A stretch of 64,000 bases of DNA from Liolophura sinensis (lineage: Eukaryota > Mollusca > Polyplacophora > Chitonida > Chitonidae). The translations under genes and the position numbers were made by a program. Where the stretch lies: assembly GCF_032854445.1 (NCBI RefSeq), contig NC_088302.1, positions 41,916,191-41,980,190 on the forward strand, given 5' to 3'. The number at the start of each line of letters is the position of its first letter. Within the stretch, counting starts at the first letter, position 1. Of the stretch, positions 15,467-30,830 are shown piece after piece. The notes under the pieces were generated by a model. The model saw only the letters and a program-made list of their open reading frames with translations, did not search any database and was not told the DNA's origin.

Positions 15467-18400
15467 GGTGGCCCAGCTGAAAGCCTGAACGCTCGCCACA
15501 TCAGTACAGATCTGTTTGACTACATACAGAAGAGAAGCTATGGCCTGCAGTGTCGAAACCCTCAGCCGCTGGTGTCTGATCTCATCTCATATCAGATGCC
15601 TGGCCTCTTTACAGAGCGCGAGTATGACCTGGGTGGAATCAACAAGATATTTGCCTCTCAGTGGCTCTCCGACAAACAGATTGTTTTTGGCACAAAATGT
15701 AACAAGGTGATAGCATATATAAGCATTCCTTACATTGTTCACAGCAGGGTAGCAAGCACATGGGATTGGATATACATGTATGCAGAAAGAGTTTAGTTGA
15801 TAATAGATTGGCTATACATTTGTTTTATTCAAACCACCCTAGAATTATAAATGGAAAGATGTCAGTGGAGTAAAAAAAGATCTAAGTTTAATACTTTAAA
15901 GGAACAGACCCCTAAACATCGAAGTAGACATTACTACATAAACCACTTAAAACTATGCATAAATATACTTTGATATTGATATTCTGTTTTAAAAGTTAAA
16001 AAACTTTTTCAAAAGTTTAAAGTTATACCATCATTTTAACTTCAATATGAGACAGCAAACTGAGTTGAGAATTACAAACAAGCAATCCATCCAAACCTTT
16101 AAACCTTTTGGAAATTTTGAAGCGATTGTAAATATTGCAGCCAGAGCTATTAACCAAGCATAGTTATAGATGTTCAGTTACTGATAGTAGCTCTGGAAAG
16201 TAGTTCACATTCCCCTCTGTTCAGGCTTGATGGTAGATTGTTAGTGTGGCTTAACTTCTGATGGTGATGTTATTGATTTTCTTTCTAGTTTATTACATTC
16301 TCCTTTGTTTTCTCATCTTATAAATCTGACTCCAGTCAAGTGTATGAGTGAAATATTCTTTAGGTTGGCATACGTGTACATCATTTATAGAACACCAATC
16401 AAATAAATAAATAAAATAACATCATTTTATTATAGAAAGAGGTGAAACAGCCACCACAAAGATTATAGGATCTTGAAGCTTTTCCTCCAATTGATTTTTA
16501 GTCAGTTTCAACTGTTACAGGTCCTTTATACTGACCGTACATGGGAAGGTCTGTCAGCAACCTGCGGATGGTCGTGGGTTTCCCTTGGGCTCTGCCTGGT
16601 TTCCTCCCACCTTAATGCTGGCTGCCGTATAAGTGAAATATTCTTGAGTACGGCATAAAACATCAATAAACGAAATAAATAAATCCTTTATTCTGAATTA
16701 AGATTGCATTCACTCATATTTATAAAAAATAAATTAGCATGTAAATCTGTTTTTCATAACTTTGTGAAAATTACCTCATAATTCTTGCTTACATCCGGAT
16801 TTATCTGTGTATGTTCTGAATTTCATTAATTAAATGCATTTGAAATATTGTCATTTGAAATTTTTGCAGTGGATGAACTTATCTATATTTGATGAGAAAA
16901 TAATGACTTTCATTTAATGTTTTGCCAATTAAAATGCATTTTCAGAAGCATATAAAGGCCTTAAAATGATACTTTTAATTCTAACACATAGGTTGTTCTC
17001 ATAAGAAATAAGTCAAACATTAAGAAAATAATTTTGAAGACTTGTAAAACTTTTGGTGAAATACAGTGAATTGAGACTGCAGTATCAAAAGCTGTGGTGT
17101 TGAAAAATATACTGTACAGAGTAACACTAAAGAGCAAAAGCTATATGACATAATATTTGAAGCAAAAAAATATAGAAGTAATTTACGTGTTGCTACTTAA
17201 AACTTTCCCCTTTAGGACAACAAACATATTTACAACTGTAACAATAGACCCATAGGTCATGGAGCGTATGAACAGGGTAGCCCTAATCTGTGTGGTGTTT
17301 GTATCATAGCTGGAGATCCTGGACTTGCCCACTGGTAAGCTGATTGTCATCCCCACCCTGAAGAGCAGTGAGGAGAGTTTCCCAGCTGACTGTCCATGTG
17401 GCATCCACAGCATGGCCATCAACCCCTCCCGTACCCTGCTGGCTACAGGGGCGGAGAACACCAATGACCTGGCTGTCTACAGACTCCCAACGTTTGACCC
17501 TGTCTGTGTAGGGGAGGTAAGCGGCTTTATCTACTGGTATAGAGAAGTTTTCGTACTCTCCAATTATTGGGTAAACCAAATACATGTACATGTAGGCCTA
17601 CATAAACCAAATCTTTCCAAAATTTGAGAGTATTTTACGTGGGGTTTATTTCGTATTATATTTTTTAAACAGAAGTTTAATTCACAGTTGTACACAATTA
17701 GTTTTTAAAATGAAGAAGGAATATAATGTGTGTGCAAGAGTGGTAGGGAATGGTAATTTTGGGGCACTAGTATGTTTACCAATCTGATGGGCTACATGCT
17801 GATATCAAATACCAGTATATGGATTCATGCGTACAGAATTTATCTGTACGGCACTCTGATATTGCATTACAATTTGATGAGAAAATCATTGCTGATGTTC
17901 ACTTAAATTTTGCCTTGTGAAATTGCAATTTCAGTGACACAGAGACCTTAAAATGATACCATTGATGTCAACACTTAAGGTTTTCTAGTAAGAGATTAAT
18001 CAGACTTTGCAAAAAACTCTCAAGTAGCCCTATAACACAAATGAAACATGCAAAATGTGTCCCCTAAAAAATATGAAGTGAAATACAGCGAATTGAGACT
18101 GTATTATGTAAAGCTGTGCTGTTGAAAGATCTGCTATGGTGCAGAGTAACACTGCAGAGTATAACTGTATGCGTATGTGGCAACTTGGAAGACCTGGATG
18201 GTTGTGGGTTTTCCCCAGGCTCTGTCTGTTTTTTTTCCCACCATAATGCAGGCTGCCATCTTATAAGTGAAATATCCTTGAGTATGGAGTAAAACAAGAA
18301 TCAAGTAATTAAAATAAATGCAAAACTTTAAGCCTTGTTTGGACTTTAATATCACCTGCTTGAAGTGAACTACAGTTTGAAAAATTATTTCTGTTATTCT

Positions 18401-21400
18401 ATATAATAATAATATAATAAATTCTATTATTTTCTAAAAGTATTTCTTTTTTTCCTTTTTTTTTTTAAATATAGTACATTTTGCTACTTAAAAATGAATT
18501 TCCACTATAGGATGACAAATATGTACAACTGTACCTATAGCTCTAGCTTAACATGATGAAAATATCTTTTCCTGAACAGGGTGGCCATGATGACTGGATA
18601 TTTGACACAGTCTGGGTAGATGATGAGTTTGTTGTGACAGGTAAGCAGTCAAGATTTTTGACGCATTCTGGGTGAATGACAGGTTAGCTGTGATCGGTAA
18701 GCAGTCAAGATTTGACCCATTCTGGGTGAATGACACGCTAGTAGGGACAAGTAGGCAGTCAAGATTTGACCCATTCTGGGTGAATGACAAGCTGGTAGGG
18801 ACAGGTAAGCAGTCAAGACCTGACACAGTCTGCGTGGATAACAGGTTAGTTGTGACAGGTAAGCAGACAGGTGAGCAGTAAAGATAGGGCACAGTCTGCG
18901 TGGATGTCAGGTTAGTTGTGACAGGTGAGCAGTCAAGGTCTGACACAGTCAGACGATAAAATTTTATTGCCAAGTCAAGCAATACCGGCTGCGATACAGA
19001 CGATAAATTTTTATTGCCAAGTCAAGCAATACCGGCTGCGACACAAGGATCCATGCTGTCAGGCCAACGGATTGTAAGTTGCAGTGACAACAGTCTCTCA
19101 CTAACACCTGTGAAAGTAACAATGGAGCTTATCTTTTATGTTTTAAAAACGTATCACCAGTAAAAATAGATACGGTTTGAATTATATTGAATGGAAACAG
19201 GGATTGGTAACACACAGAAATGCCAGTTTAAATGTTGTCTGGGATCCCGTTACGGGCTTCAAGGTATGGCATGCTGTGAGGCGTCATATGCACATGGTCG
19301 GGCCTGTAGGCGAGGTGTGAACTGAGCTGGAGGGTCTGTAGCCTAGTGGCTACTGTAGGGCAAAGGCCAGCTGCTCCCTTCAGACATCATGGTGTCATCA
19401 CCTGCTGTTTAAACAACTTCTGCATTCTGAGAGTGAAAATTTGGATGTCTTTTATTTTTCGTTTATCTTTATTGGGGGATAATGTAAGTCTCGACCTTCG
19501 GCCTTTTCTGTTAGAAAGTATGGCGTTTAATAAAAGCGGGTTTTTTTTTTAATGAGATATGCTCCATATTTTGTCAATCTGTGGTAGTTTTAGGTCCTGT
19601 AACTTTACAGTATCCTGCCTGGTGATAGTGCAGTCGCAAGCCACACTTGAGCATGGTATAATCTCAAAATTAAATGTAAATGTAGAGCGATTGTCTTCTG
19701 TTCTCTGTGTTGTACACATAGCAAAGTCTCAGATGCCTGTAGCGAAGGTACCTCTGTGATGTCGCAAGGTCAATTGTGGCTCGATCCTAGTGGAGTAGGT
19801 TTTCTTATGTTTGATTACCAAATTCTGACGTTTTTCTTCTGTTTTCGATGTTTAAGTAATCAGGAATTGATTCAAGGGATATCAGACCATCTATCTGCAG
19901 TTTGGAAGGCACAGCTTTGGGGATTTACTTTAAGTATGAGACCATTGCTGCCTGCATTGATTTTTAAAGCATTGATAAATTTAATGTAAACAATTTTATT
20001 TTGGTGTATTTAAACAAACTGTGAATAGTACATGTACTTTAAAGCATGGAGTACAATTCAGGTTGTGCTCATGGTGCGATTCTGACAACTACATTTATAT
20101 GGATTCAAGGTAATATACATGTAGAAAGATGCTGATGTTTAGAAATTTAGAATTTTCACTTGATATGTTTGGATATATGTTTCACATTTTCAGTGGAACA
20201 CAAACTCAATGCTTTCATACCAATCCTGGTAGAATGCATGGAACAGCGTACTCCTTAAATTTAAAAAAAGGACTGATTTCTGTTGACTTGAATTCCTATA
20301 TATTTGTATAATTATCTGTTGTTCAGGTTCTCGAGACAGTAAGCTGTCATTGTGGAAGATACACAGCAATGAGGACAGCGAGACGTCTCGTCTGAAGAGC
20401 CTGCAGGTGCCAGAGTACATCATCAAGAGGCCAGAGGTGATCAAGACCTGTGAGAAGGCGAAGAAAGTGCGGGCTCTTGCATACAATGACAGGAGAACTG
20501 TAAGTTCCTCTGGTCTGTAATCTTTAAGTGTACATGACATGAGAGGCTTTAAACATGAATCATAATAGGTCCACAGGCTCGTCAAGGAAACCTCACACAC
20601 TTCCTTTTTTTTGGCTGGGAGAGAGGATCCTTTGTTTGTTTAGTGATTTAAGTAGGGTTTATGCCATATTACACAAAAGTAACATGTTAGATGACTGAGC
20701 TAACAAAGGCTGTCAGATTTTCTTGCTTTGTCATACAGAAGCAGGATCTGTAATACCAGAAACAAGATGCAAATAATGGTGATGTTTTGTGTTTGACACA
20801 AACTTGTAGCCAGTTTGGTTTGTAGGTGTGCAGAAAGCCACCCTGGAGAGTCAGGATACTTATATCCTGTAATCCATTCATCTGCCTTTATATTGCCAGT
20901 CAAGGCAATATGTTAGAGGAAATGCATGGCCTATAATCTAAAGCAACTATTTTCACTGCTTAACCAGGTAAAAGGAGACACTGGCAACAGTATAGACTTT
21001 TCTTGTCTTCTGTAAAATGATATTAAATGAACTGGAGCATTCTACATACTATCAGTTATTGAGTCACATTTGTATGAATGATGTAATAAAATATGTAGTT
21101 AATGTTTTATTTGAAAAATCCGTTCCTTTACATTGCAGGAGTTAGGAATTTTATCCCTGAATGCTTACCTACATCTGTGGGATGTGGAGACCTTTTCCAG
21201 TGTAGGTGAATTTTCTCAACTCAAATGGGAGAATGTTTTTAGGGCTATATTATGGTGTAGGTATATGCATAGTTGTCTTCATCTGATACTGTAAAAAAAA
21301 AGATAAAAGTTATTCTTAAACAAGTGTAAGCATCTACCTATAGATGCACATATTTGTGCACATGTGTAAGGGTAAAGTTTACTTCTAAGATTGTTAGTGA

Positions 21401-23918
21401 GGGACTTGACATTTTATCAGATTTTTCAAACAAAACTTATAATGTTGATATATATATTTTATAAAATTTTCTTCAGTGTATTTTTCAAGAATATTTTATT
21501 TCAAGTTGTGACGCATTATCTAGGACTAATCATTCCAATTATTCAGAGATAAGACTGAGCTGTAATCCACTCTTTGACATTTGTGTTTTCTCATTTAAGC
21601 GAGACTACAAACGACTCCAACAAGTGAAGGAGAATGTGTGTTTAGCGATAAACAAGGATCGCAGCCTGTATGCTGTGGGCTCTCAGTCCCATGTCACTCT
21701 GTTTGACCCTCGGGCTATGAACATTAGCGTGGTGATCCAGTCAGAGCACAGGGGATGTGGTAAGTAGGCAAGCCTGGATCCATGTACCACATCCTAGTTA
21801 CACACACAGGTTTATGGTACAGAAGAAAAGAGGCTTCATAGTGTGTGGACAGAATATCTATATTTTCACGGCTAAGAAAACTTCAGAAAACAGTATCGAC
21901 CAGTTACAAGGATCACAGCTAATGTTGCTTTCAGTGGTATCATATCCTATGTTCTGACTCTAGTTGTTCAATATTAGGTTCAAACCATGTGTGTTATTAA
22001 ACACACAACATTTGTTGTACCGGTACTATATTTTGTACATCATTATTACCGTACCATTATCCTATTTGTGCGATGATCGTACATGTACAAAGTACAACAT
22101 CTAAAACTTCATCTTGGCTTTTGAGCTAGTGTGTGATTATGACACACCTTGCAATGAGTCAGGTCTTTCTCCCCAGACTTACGATTTTGTTTGGTGTGTC
22201 TTACTGTACTAGCACACGTAGTACACTTAGTCTCAGGAGGAGTGCAGTGGGCTTGAGGGTGCGATAGCACACATAGACTTTGTCTCGGGAGTGCAGTGGG
22301 CTTGAGGGTGTGATAGCACATGTACACTTTGTGTCGGGAGTGCAGTGGACTTGAGGGTGTGATAGCACATGTACACTTTGTGTCGGGAGTGCAGTGGACT
22401 TGAGGGTGTGATAGCACATGTACACTTTGTGTCGGGAGTGCAGTGGACTTGAGGGTGTGATAGCACATGTGCACTTTGTCTCAGGAGTGCAGTGGGCTTG
22501 AGGGTGTGATAGCACATGTACACTTTGTCTCAGGAGTGCAGTGGGCTTGAGGGTGTTATAGTCCAATGGTCCATTTTCTATCTCTACCTTAAAGGAATGT
22601 AACTATGTTTGCGTTTTTTTTTTTTTTTTTTGTTGTTTATCATCAGGTATTCGGTCGTTGAGTTTCCAAGAAGACATTGTGACAGTAGGGACAGGTGTAG
22701 GACTGATTCTGTTCTATGACTTAAGAGCAGGAAAGTACCTGGACTGCCACTGTGGTCATCCATGCAGACTGACTGTGGGTCCGGGCTGGCTGGTAAGTAT
22801 ACACACATCAGTGTATCCCTTTAGTCAGGTGTCCAGGTCAATCATTCCATAGAACATGTAGGCATGATAGGTAGGGGGCATGGTGACATTTGAGTTGAAT
22901 TATAAATATGTTGCATATTTAATGGCCCAAGGTGTTCAAATCGTGAGAGATTTGTCTTCATGATGCCAACTGTATTCATGTACATGTATATGTGATTAAG
23001 CTACTTGGATGATAATTATGTGTTAATCATAGGTATGTAGCGCATACTCGTCACAAAAAGATATCCCTCACCACAAAAAACTTAAGAGACATGGAAATGC
23101 TCCCTGCGTGTCCCTCCATCCATGCGTCTGTCACATCTGTGCTTGTGAACAGGATGTCATCAACAGTTTTCAACCAAAAAGGGATTGTTGAGAGTGACTG
23201 TAGTTACTGTACATATTGCATGTCGCTTGAAGTTTAGTATTTTTCAAGTGACACATTTTGATTTATTCAGATTTTTTCATCCACCTTATAGAGCCACTGA
23301 AGAGTTAGACTAATTTCTTATCAGAATAACTAAAGTGTTTCCCTCAGAAGCATCATTTTACGGCCTTTATGTGCTACTGAAAGTGCATTTTTACATGCCA
23401 AACTTTGGGTGAAACGTGGTGATCTGTTATGGCCAATCTCCACACATTTCTTCTTCATCATTCTTTTAAGATTTTAACGTATTCTGAAAATGGCCTTTTG
23501 TCTCATAATAACACAATAACATGGACCTGTCAGCCACAGAGTCTGTTGGTCATCTTTCAATAGTGTGATAGGAGTTTGATATCATCGCTGGTATGTGTAT
23601 CTTGATGATGTCATTTCAGTGAGACAGCCTTTTAAATATAACAGCGTAGGCACTATCCTGCTAACAGGAAAGATGATCTTTATATCCTCAAAAAAATACT
23701 TAAAGTGTTAGTAAATCCCAAACAAACAAATTTAATTGTATTATACATTTTTTTTGTTTCAGCTCCATGATGAAAACTACACAGATTTCTTTATGGATCA
23801 AGTGTATGCAAATGCCATCTACACGCATTCATACGACTCCACGGGAACGCGTCTATTTGCTGCAGGCGGCCCTCTGCCAGCTGGACTGTGGGGGAACTAT
23901 GCAGGGTTGTGGACATGA
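15467..23918 (+). CDS. DCAF12: DDB1- and CUL4-associated factor 12 (WD40 protein), 5' end missing
   Basis: DCAF12 is a substrate receptor of the CUL4-DDB1 ubiquitin ligase; the mammalian protein reads C-terminal acidic degrons. Visible exons are 15467-15706, 17310-17516, 18580-18640, 20327-20499, 21139-21201, 21600-21759, 22647-22792 and 23763-23918. All have GT-AG borders and compatible phases, giving 401 residues plus TGA; the human protein has 453. The first visible exon carries [19 protein letters not shown], matching human FASQWLNHRQVVCGTKCNT. WD blades follow in order: [40 protein letters not shown], then [46 protein letters not shown] and the conserved end [17 protein letters not shown]. 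The N-terminal exon (Arg/Lys-rich in human) was not found; the phase-0 acceptor at 15467 shows that it exists upstream. Introns hold SINEs and two minisatellites. Confidence 0.95.
16320..16412 (+). mobile_element. Degraded core-SINE 3' fragment in DCAF12 intron
   Basis: Only GAGTGAAATATTCTTTAG and AGAACACCAATCAAATAAAT remain recognisable from the core-SINE 3' end. It lies in the first visible intron of DCAF12. Confidence 0.5.
16538..16684 (+). mobile_element. Core-SINE copy in DCAF12 intron
   Basis: The core includes CAGCAACCTGCGGATGGTCG, GGTTTCCTCCCACC, ATAAGTGAAATATTCTTGAG and the AATAAATAAAT tail. The tRNA-like head is absent. Orientation is the same as the gene. Confidence 0.85.
16850..17250. 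repeat. Intron segment duplicated in the next DCAF12 intron (copy 1)
   Basis: This stretch before exon 17310-17516 is a diverged direct copy of 17860-18545 before the next exon. Shared landmarks are TTGATGAGAAAATAATGA, CCTTAAAATGATAC, GTGAAATACAGTGAATTGAG, AAAGCTGTGGTGTTGAAA, CAGAGTAACACT, TTGCTACTTAAAA and GACAACAAACATATTTACAA. The order is the same in both copies. The duplication spans intron sequence, not the exons. Confidence 0.7.
17860..18545. repeat. Intron segment duplication in DCAF12 (copy 2, with SINE insertion)
   Basis: This is the partner of 16850-17250: TTGATGAGAAAATCATTG, CCTTAAAATGATACC, GTGAAATACAGCGAATTGAG, AAAGCTGTGCTGTTGAAA, CAGAGTAACACT, then TTGCTACTTAAAA and GACAAATATGTACAACTGTA. 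A core-SINE (18181-18320) lies inside it and is missing from copy 1, so the SINE landed after the duplication or only in this copy. Confidence 0.7.
18181..18320 (+). mobile_element. Core-SINE copy in DCAF12 intron
   Basis: The core reads GATGGTTGTGGGTTTTCCCC, CACCATAATGCAGGCTGCC, ATAAGTGAAATATCCTTGAG, then AAAACAAGAATCAAGTAA. The head is missing. It interrupts the duplicated intron segment. Confidence 0.8.
18605..18949 (+). repeat. 54-bp minisatellite made from a DCAF12 exon end plus its splice donor
   Basis: The last ~36 bases of exon 18580-18640 and the first ~18 bases of the following intron are repeated in tandem. Each unit has a TGACACAGTCTGGGTGGATG-like block, a TTAGTTGTGACAG-like block and GTAAGCAGTCAAGA. 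The true donor is at 18641. Donor-like GT sites follow at 18697, 18751 (GTAGGC), 18805, 18859, 18871 (GTGAGC) and 18925 (GTGAGC). Spacing is 56, then 54, 54, 54, 12 and 54. The exon copy is the one conserved in human DCAF12 (…WISDTMAVSG), so the repeat derives from the exon. Splicing at any later donor would read into TGA at 18673-18675. Confidence 0.88.
18950..19042. repeat. 46/47-bp direct duplication
   Basis: Two nearly identical units begin with CAGACGATAAA and contain TTTATTGCCAAGTCAAGCAA then TACCGGCTGCGA. They follow the exon-derived array without a gap. Their origin is unknown. Confidence 0.9.
22213..22558. repeat. 49-bp minisatellite in DCAF12 intron
   Basis: About seven units repeat every 49 bases, with blocks GTGCAGTGGACTTGAGGGTG, TGATAGCACATGTACACTTT and GTGTCGGGA or GTCTCAGGA. 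The middle copies are almost identical. Reading frames stay open on the minus strand only because of the repeat. It lies in the intron between 21759 and 22647. Confidence 0.92.
23346..23420. repeat. Dispersed repeat copy shared with 40620-40690
   Basis: The blocks CTGAAAGTGCATTTTTACAT and GCCAAACTTTGGGTGAAA recur as CTGAAAGTGCATTTTTACAT and GCCAAACTTTAGGTGAAA in a PDCD7 intron 17 kb away. A CAGAAGCATcATTTTacGGCCTT-like block also resembles 16945. It is an unclassified interspersed family. Confidence 0.6.
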
Positions 23919-28748: not shown

Positions 28749-29714
28749 ATAAGTCCATCATGAGATGGATTCGCAACAACTGCATTGAGGCTCTCAAGTT
28801 ATGAAGAATAAGTCTGGGCAAAGTGTCTTCAGTATTGCACTTCAAATTGAAAATAAAAAATTCAAAATGAAATTAAATCTTCTTTAACCTACTAAAGTTT
28901 ACAAAATCACTGACTGCCCACATACTACTGTTCATACACATGAAAAGTTGCAGTTTTCACGAGATTATCAACAAGTCATGATTTTGTTCAGCCAGGCAGT
29001 GGGCATTCAAAATAGATTAATTAACTAAGTTAATTCTGTAAAGATTTATGTTTGACAGGACTGGTTTCTAAATATTTTCAAAATTCAGTATCAAATTAAA
29101 ACCTTGAAAGTAAAGATCAAGGGTATCACGTGATGATATATTTAGGCTCCTTACCTTGGCTATAAGCAAGTGTGTTGTGAGTCACAAGAGTCTAGTGTTT
29201 ATTAAAATGTAACTGAGACATTGTAATGATCTTCACTGTTCTTTATCTCAACAAAATGTGATGAGTCATGGTCTTGGTAAGAGTACTCCTTACTCCTACA
29301 AGTAGGAATAAACTCCTTACTCCTACAAGTAAGGTGTTGGGTAGGTGCATATATATAGTGCACTATAACTGAAAGTAAAACTGAAGCCTACTGCTGGCGC
29401 TTGAAAGGAAAAGAAATGCAAGATATTTCAAACACACTGAAGAAGTTCTCTAAATATCACAGAAGGAAGAATATGAAAATAATATCTTTGCATTATACTA
29501 ATTCACAACACTGTGGCAAAGAAATATGAAGATAATAAACAAAGGATTTTGTTGTAATTCCAAGAAGTCATTAGCCCAATCCAAGGTTTCTTGAAGATTT
29601 GTGAACTGTTATTCATGTTTGACATGGCAACATGTGCCCAAGCGGAAGATGCTACGGAAGATGTCACGCACATTACAGTCAACCACTTCTCATGACTTGC
29701 CTGGTGACACAACT

Positions 29715-30830
29715 CCAGGCTTCCACTGGTCACACCTGGTACTGTTTGATGACTTTTGCCATAGATGCCTTAGGACATCACTCTCAGCTACCAATGGCCA
29801 CACCCATTACTGCCTGATGACATCAATCAAAGTTTCCACTGGTCACACTTGGTACTGTTTGATGACTTTTGCCAAAGATGCCTTAGGACATCACGTTCGG
29901 CTTCCAATGGCCACACCCATTACTGCCTGATGACATCAATCAAAGTTTCCACTGGCCACACTTGGTACTGTTTGATGACTTTTGCCATAGATGCCTTAGG
30001 ACCTCACGCTCGGCTTCCATTGGCCACACCCATTACTGCCTGATGACATCAATCAAAGTTTCCACCGGCCACACTTGGTACTGTTTGATGACTTTTGCCA
30101 TAGATGCCTTAGGACCTCACGCTCGGCTTCCATTGGCCACACCCAATACTGCCTGATGACATCAATCAAAGTTTCCACCGGCCACACTTGGTACTGTTTG
30201 ATGACTTTTGCCATAGATGCCTTAGGACCTCACGCTCGGCTTCCATTGGCCACACCCATTACTGCCTGATGACATCAATCAAAGTTTCCACCGGCCACAC
30301 TTGGTACTGTTTGATGACTTTTGCCATAGATGCCTTAGGACCTCACGCTCGGCTTCCATTGGCCACACCCATTACTGCCTGATGACATCAATCAAAGTTT
30401 CCACCGGCCACACTTGGTACTGTTTGATGACTTTTGCCATAGATGCCTTAGGACCTCACGCTCGGCTTCCATTGGCCACACCCATTACTGCCTGATGACA
30501 TCAATCAAAGTTTCCACTGGCCACACTTGGTACTGTTTGATGACTTTTGCCATAGATGCCTTAGGACCTCACGCTCGGCTTCCATTGGCCACACCCATTA
30601 CTGCCTGATGACATCAATCAAAGTTTCCACCGGCCACACTTGGTACTGTTTGATGACTTTTGCCATAGATGCCTTAGGACCTCACGCTCGGCTTCCATTG
30701 GCCACACCCAATACTGCCTGATGACATCAATCAAAGTTTCCACTGGCCACACTTGGCACTGTTTGTTGCCCTGTGCCATAGACATCTTAGGACATCACTC
30801 TTCCACTGGCCACACCATCTACTGCTTCAT
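29715..30830. repeat. 113-bp tandem array derived from the end of PDCD7
   Basis: About ten units repeat at exactly 113 bases; the marker TGGTACTGTTTGATGACTTT recurs with that spacing from about 29735 to 30640, with a decayed unit near 30753. The middle eight are nearly identical. Each unit is a dimer: on the minus strand both halves begin GTGTGGCCA(G/A)TGGAA and end GTCATCA(GG/AA)CAGTA. The PDCD7 terminal exon shows the same pattern, GTGTGGCCAGCAGAA ... GTCATGAAGCAGTAG. One half-unit reads VWPVETLIDVIRQ-stop against VWPAEPSSGIWASVMKQ-stop in the gene. Long plus-strand ORFs over the array are artefacts of the repeat. Confidence 0.92.

Follow-up and report, generated by a model that had tools for sequence, protein, structure and literature searches.

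Introduction

The minisatellite of the human IFI6 gene is built from a short unit of 12 bp. Two of its downstream repeat units have been described as splice donors (PMC4526556), and this is the closest precedent for the array that we have studied here. The latter lies in the DCAF12 gene of the chiton Liolophura sinensis, within a stretch of 64,000 nucleotides (nt) of the genome assembly GCF_032854445.1 that we term the window. It comprises the end of a coding exon with its 5′ splice site, followed by five diverged intronic copies of the same 54-nt segment (41 exon and 13 intron bases). In both systems, repeat units downstream of an exon carry donors. However, the published account of IFI6 reports use of the copies in its mRNA, whereas those of the chiton are putative donors. 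The chiton units also differ in that each includes 41 nt of coding sequence, and an extended exon would run into a stop codon.

Two other systems bear comparison. In the potato RdRp gene, an intron is reported to have been gained through a tandem duplication that spans an intron-exon boundary (PMC4974935). The chiton duplication likewise spans an exon-intron boundary and multiplies splice signals, but it is the 5′ side that is copied, without implying a new intron. In VWF exon 44 and in reporters, intron retention has been reported to result from decoy 5′ splice sites or from whole decoy exons (PMC8706089), and here again there are extra donors near a true donor. The chiton copies hold donors with, by eye, no pyrimidine tract and AG of their own; this distinguishes them both from intron gain in which the duplicate provides donor and acceptor, and from the reported VWF and reporter decoys, which are exonic or lie within whole decoy exons. 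In the open literature on minisatellites with splice donors, intron gain by duplication and DCAF12 splicing, we found no title or abstract opening that describes this array.

The assembly was published as that of Liolophura japonica, the species later being corrected to Liolophura sinensis (PMC11068029 and its correction). It is reported to be HiFi based with haplotypic duplicates purged, so that a second allele would not be visible, and its gene models are reported to draw on assembled transcripts.

Results

The end of a DCAF12 exon is repeated in the following intron

The exon at 18580-18640 of the window is followed by an array derived from its own 3′ end. The features are as follows, all on the forward strand, with donor strength given as U1 pairing energy.

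18580-18640, forward strand: DCAF12 coding exon from which the copies derive (61 nt, phase 0 to 1); its frame joins the flanking exons and it is homologous to human DCAF12
18600-18653, forward strand: parent segment of the tandem duplication, 41 nt of exon and 13 nt of intron, placed by the start and period given by Tandem Repeats Finder (TRF); the first copy joins at ATTT
18641-18649, forward strand: true 5′ splice site, CAG/GTAAGCAG (CAG/GTAAGC), -11.0 kcal/mol
18654-18949, forward strand: array of five diverged copies (spacing 56, 54, 54, 54 and 66) with a partial sixth of about 12 nt, from TRF and alignment
18655-18659, forward strand: T5 in the first junction, against T3 in the next two; these two additional T shift the extension to another frame
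18673-18675, forward strand: in-frame TGA, the stop that an exon extended to any copied donor would reach (from trials of nine downstream GT sites)
18697-18702, forward strand: copy donor TCG/GTAAGC, -8.2 kcal/mol
18751-18756, forward strand: copy donor CAA/GTAGGC, decayed, -4.2 kcal/mol
18805-18810, forward strand: copy donor CAG/GTAAGC, -11.0 kcal/mol, same as the true donor from -3 to +8
18859-18864, forward strand: copy donor CAG/GTAAGC, -11.0 kcal/mol, same as the true donor from -3 to +8
18871-18876, forward strand: donor CAG/GTGAGC from a 12-bp micro-duplication, -11.1 kcal/mol
18925-18930, forward strand: copy donor CAG/GTGAGC, -11.1 kcal/mol
18950-19075, forward strand: dispersed repeat adjoining the array, its first 47 nt present twice, with at least 36 further matches in the genome

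The exon end reads ...GTGACAG/GTAAGCAGTCAAG. With 18600-18653 as query, each of the five downstream copies matches at 41-44 of 54 positions. Among 1000 first-order Markov sequences, each 1000 nt long, the highest score was 31 of 54, and the best match elsewhere in the window was 31 on the forward strand (with the array masked) and 29 on the reverse strand. TRF gives a period of 54 bp for 18600-18866 (4.9 copies with 80% matches) and of 66 bp for 18800-18932. A sequence-only reading of this locus had proposed about six repeats of the exon end at 54-bp spacing, with formal alignment as the check on their origin. The alignment bears out the repetition, as a parent and five copies, but the spacing is not uniform, since the ungapped copy starts and the donor-to-donor steps are of 56 and 66 bases at the two ends of the row. 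With 54-bp units, the array falls among minisatellites, with tandem units of 10-100 bp.

The units are 70-89% identical to one another (mean divergence ~22%) and the exon is 76-81% identical to the copies. The best tree of the units requires 32 steps and the next best 33; it pairs 18751 with 18805 and 18859 with 18925, as expected if neighboring units duplicate. The extra donor at 18871 is, by eye, the product of the micro-duplication inside one unit.

The direction of copying is given by the gene. Joining exons 15467-15706, 17310-17516, 18580-18640, 20327-20499, 21139-21201, 21600-21759, 22647-22792 and 23763-23918 gives 401 codons and a stop, and the 401-amino acid product matches human DCAF12 (chains 8t9a_B and 8ajm_B) with E ~1e-113. 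The model was built on homology and splice consensus, and it starts at 15467 with further upstream exons left unmapped. The array exon aligns with human DCAF12, the stretch encoded by its end being conserved. It is this exon whose frame carries on the conserved protein, which makes it the source of the copies, as the earlier reading had argued. By homology and splice consensus, the array starts at a real exon donor on the sense strand. A genome search (632 contigs, 609,464,459 bases, the window lying on contig C8) with the 401-amino acid query gave eight matches, all at this locus and none from a second DCAF12, although a missing match is no proof of absence. A search with the array, bearing on a mobile-element origin, matched only its own place (one genome match), a result that does not show rarity.

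Four copied donors equal the true donor in computed U1 pairing

We have taken the energy of the duplex with U1 as the measure of donor strength; the U1 gene read for this purpose (L004) begins ATACTTACCTG. By this measure four of the six copied donors (18805, 18859, 18871 and 18925) pair at least as well as the true donor, and none is stronger by more than 0.1 kcal/mol. The remaining two have lost strength in part (18697) or largely (18751). The sequence-only reading had placed all seven sites correctly, including the weaker GTAGGC at 18751; its description of near-identical strength holds for the four and fails for 18697 and 18751. Two of the copied donors are identical to the true donor over 11 nt. 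For comparison, the donors of the DCAF12 gene model (n = 7) range from -5.4 to -11.0 kcal/mol, and the array contains nine further, weaker GT sites of -4.7 to -8.2 kcal/mol.

Such a concentration of strong sites is found nowhere else in the window. Sites that equal or exceed the true donor number four in 18642-18950, against nine in the other 63,690 nt of the forward strand and six on the reverse strand. Together with the true donor this makes five in ~300 nt, where any other 300-nt stretch of the window has at most one. Folding of 18480-19160 is predicted to leave the donors 0.15-0.42 unpaired (0.24 for the true donor), against a mean of 0.41 over the whole stretch.

The U1 small nuclear RNA genes themselves are mostly in tandem, in ~2-kb units on C10 (30033968-30140539) and C627. 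The search gave 41 matches, 40 of them over the cut-off, three being on C6/C7.

Extension to a copied donor would introduce a premature stop codon

The TGA at 18673-18675 is in frame with the exon, and it is the first stop codon for nine of the nine downstream GT sites tried, which is in agreement with what the earlier reading had claimed for the six copied donors. A weak GT at 18672 (-6.6 kcal/mol), which precedes the TGA, was not among the nine. Later exon junctions follow, so that an extended exon has the premature stop upstream of a later junction that characterizes a poison exon. An mRNA with a stop codon ahead of later exon junctions is expected to be degraded by nonsense-mediated mRNA decay (NMD), and this is therefore the expected fate of the extended mRNA. 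The stop falls at 18673 because the first junction has T5 rather than T3, and the two extra T look accidental.

No extra conservation detected in the copied donors

We have asked how the copies have changed using the unit tree, with six rows from one species and thus low power; here and in the neutral simulation below, the downstream half of the 18859 row was taken from 18871 so as to bypass the 12-bp micro-duplication, and 18871 has no separate row. In the exon-derived part the steps at codon positions 1, 2 and 3 number 8, 8 and 8. At this power the copies have evidently diverged without detectable coding constraint. The donor 9-mer took 5 steps where 5.35 are expected, and the region from -3 to +13 took 6 steps against 9.5 (P 0.12). 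The copied donor letters are not kept better than the rest of the unit.

The donors were also compared with a simulation of neutral decay, at the rate of the other unit columns. At least four of five copies kept a donor of -8 kcal/mol or better in 27% of runs (observed, four), at least three of five kept one of -10 kcal/mol or better in 32% (observed, three), and GT was kept in all five copies in 34%. Since neutral decay leaves as many donors or more in 27% of runs, those now present need no selection.

Discussion

The array as a probable decaying minisatellite

We consider it likely that the array is a small, decaying minisatellite seeded by the exon-intron boundary, in which the true donor is expected to do most of the work, with little or no effect on DCAF12. 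The alignment shows that a 54-bp segment was duplicated, and then duplicated again, into the intron, and that the 5′ splice site was taken along at every round; the copies have since diverged with no coding constraint detected at the low power of the test. With the exon lying between long introns, human data lead us to infer that the true donor would be preferred. Were a copied donor used, translation of the mRNA would, as the sequence dictates, end at 18673, and the mRNA would presumably be removed by NMD. The net effect on DCAF12 would be little or none, perhaps a constant leak into NMD.

The preference for the true donor draws on published work on donor competition. Carranza et al. report that the choice between competing donors of equal strength follows the unit of definition, long flanking introns favoring the donor nearest the upstream acceptor (PMC9225289). 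In five of their minigenes, with identical CAG/guaagu donors and 365-nt introns, the upstream donor was reported to be used exclusively (PMC9225289). In our gene model the introns on either side of exon 18580-18640 are of 1063 and 1686 nt, both >1 kb. Because the exon sits between long introns and the donor at 18641, the upstream one, is closest to the exon's own acceptor, it is expected in human terms to be preferred over the copies.

Several observations weigh against this interpretation. The proximity rule comes from human data and may not hold in molluscs. In the human transcriptome, the same report has the upstream donor chosen in only 60% of events with near-equal strength overall, and, without a filter on strength, the downstream site favored in most events of all four intron classes (PMC9225289). 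Within the array, two copies match the true donor over 11 nt despite a mean unit divergence of ~22%. Finally, the first 13 intron bases took 3 steps against 7.7 expected (permutation P 0.022, the lowest of 54 circular positions, for one of three regions tested), and this low variation could hint at a function that has been kept.

Could the row of donors control DCAF12?

The sequence-only reading had proposed that the row of donors sets splice efficiency and lowers DCAF12 output, as a poison-exon extension. By this account the downstream donors would be used at a regulated rate, and the transcripts, stopping at 18673, would be degraded, so that the row tunes the output. The four donors that equal the true one in U1 pairing, the TGA ahead of later junctions for any copied donor, the first 13 intron bases as the least variable stretch of the unit and the preponderance of downstream choice among unfiltered human events (PMC9225289) are all in its favor. 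Against this, the donors have no excess conservation (5 steps against 5.35) and their neutral survival is sufficient; in the published work equal donors with long introns lead to upstream preference, the upstream donor being used in the minigenes (PMC9225289); and the out-of-frame step hangs on two seemingly accidental T in one junction. We therefore regard the proposal as unlikely. A regulatory role in general is possible, but little favors it, and the closest published experiment would predict that the true donor is preferred.

Slightly less probable again is that the row acts without being cut. Copies that bind U1 might strengthen definition of the 61-nt exon or block premature polyadenylation in the intron, or else form dead-end complexes that favor intron retention. 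A density of strong U1 sites found only here in the window would suit such a role, and published work, for example on VWF exon 44, reports that decoy 5′ splice sites favor retention (PMC8706089). However, the VWF decoy is described as exonic and upstream of the true site where the chiton copies are downstream, no selection is detected on the donor letters, and the true donor does not stand out in the predicted pairing.

These two ideas may be combined, and we give the combination a similarly small chance: exon-seeded, near-identical donors would bind U1 as a row, cutting would take place at the first of them, and the others would either tune recognition of the 61-nt exon or divert a fixed share of DCAF12 transcripts to NMD, the copy number setting the strength of the effect.

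That the copies once added, or still add, in-frame blocks of 18 amino acids is very improbable, and is refuted for the assembled allele, for although 54 is a multiple of three and one frame of the array is open for 78 codons (18645-18881), extension to any copied donor in this assembly leaves the frame at the first junction and runs into the stop at 18673, the steps are spread evenly over the codon positions, and the exon end encodes a conserved part of DCAF12.

We return to the decaying minisatellite as the preferred explanation. As a whole the earlier reading is partly supported, the feature and its origin having been correctly named and confirmed, while its regulatory interpretation finds little backing. 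It had also held that the copy number is likely to vary between individuals. Diverged tandem arrays tend to be stable, and with units only 70-89% alike this expectation is weak.

The array is a natural version of a classic splicing test, in which one acceptor faces several donors of equal strength at regular spacing. The choice made there bears on whether a mollusc obeys the proximity rule of exon definition in human cells. Use of the copies would show how a minisatellite born at an exon edge can turn into dose control; if they are unused, the array is a measure of the donor-like noise that an exon tolerates.

Donor-like rows and other repeats in the genome

Rows of donor-like motifs are common in the chiton genome. 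For rows of three CAGGTRAG at 38-68 bp there were 3672 overlapping matches, and for the reversed pattern 689. However, the single motif is likewise more frequent than its reverse (59,903 against 23,644), and rows of CAGGTYAG gave 1222 against 563. Among the matches listed, the CAGGTRAG rows group into about seven clusters within the first 1.4 Mb of C1. Flanks were read for six of the rows (L007, L021, L024, L027, L028 and L029), and no sense exon end feeding the row was seen by eye; for L028 and L029 the nearest exon-like stretch appears, by eye, to be on the opposite strand.

We also looked for similar copying at other exon ends. A sample of WD40 loci was drawn (30 cut from 150 matches, 2 duplicates dropped), with donors chosen by U1 strength to give candidate exon ends. 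A downstream copy of >54% identity was found for none of the 28 distinct candidates and for none of the six other DCAF12 donors, compared with 81% for the array exon. A genome-wide habit of amplifying exon ends was thus not found in this small sample. An array anchored on an exon looks uncommon in this genome, whereas rows of the motif alone are common.

One row on C1 has a structure of its own. At G000:C1:505.6-509.9 kb there is a 49-bp array whose units contain a pyrimidine-rich stretch ending in CACAG, followed by a block of 12 nt (for example ATTTCTGATCAG) and by GTAAGC. It thus has acceptor- and donor-like sites around a microexon-like block, 24 of them in L024 and 26 in L026, these loci being overlapping.

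The window holds further repeats. The matches to the dispersed repeat at 18950-19075 are 74-89% identical, and the doubling of its first 47 nt is in tandem; no unit common to this repeat and the array was seen. A 49-bp array of 6.9 copies (22221-22561) ends ~85 nt before DCAF12 exon 22647-22792. A 113-bp array at 29698-30798, with 9.7 units and 96% matches, is far more uniform than the exon array and is a better candidate for copy-number variation. Elsewhere in the assembly, there are seven occurrences of mitochondrial COX1 at ~15.5-kb spacing on C99 and one on C632, a pattern that looks like a mitochondrial concatemer left unresolved.
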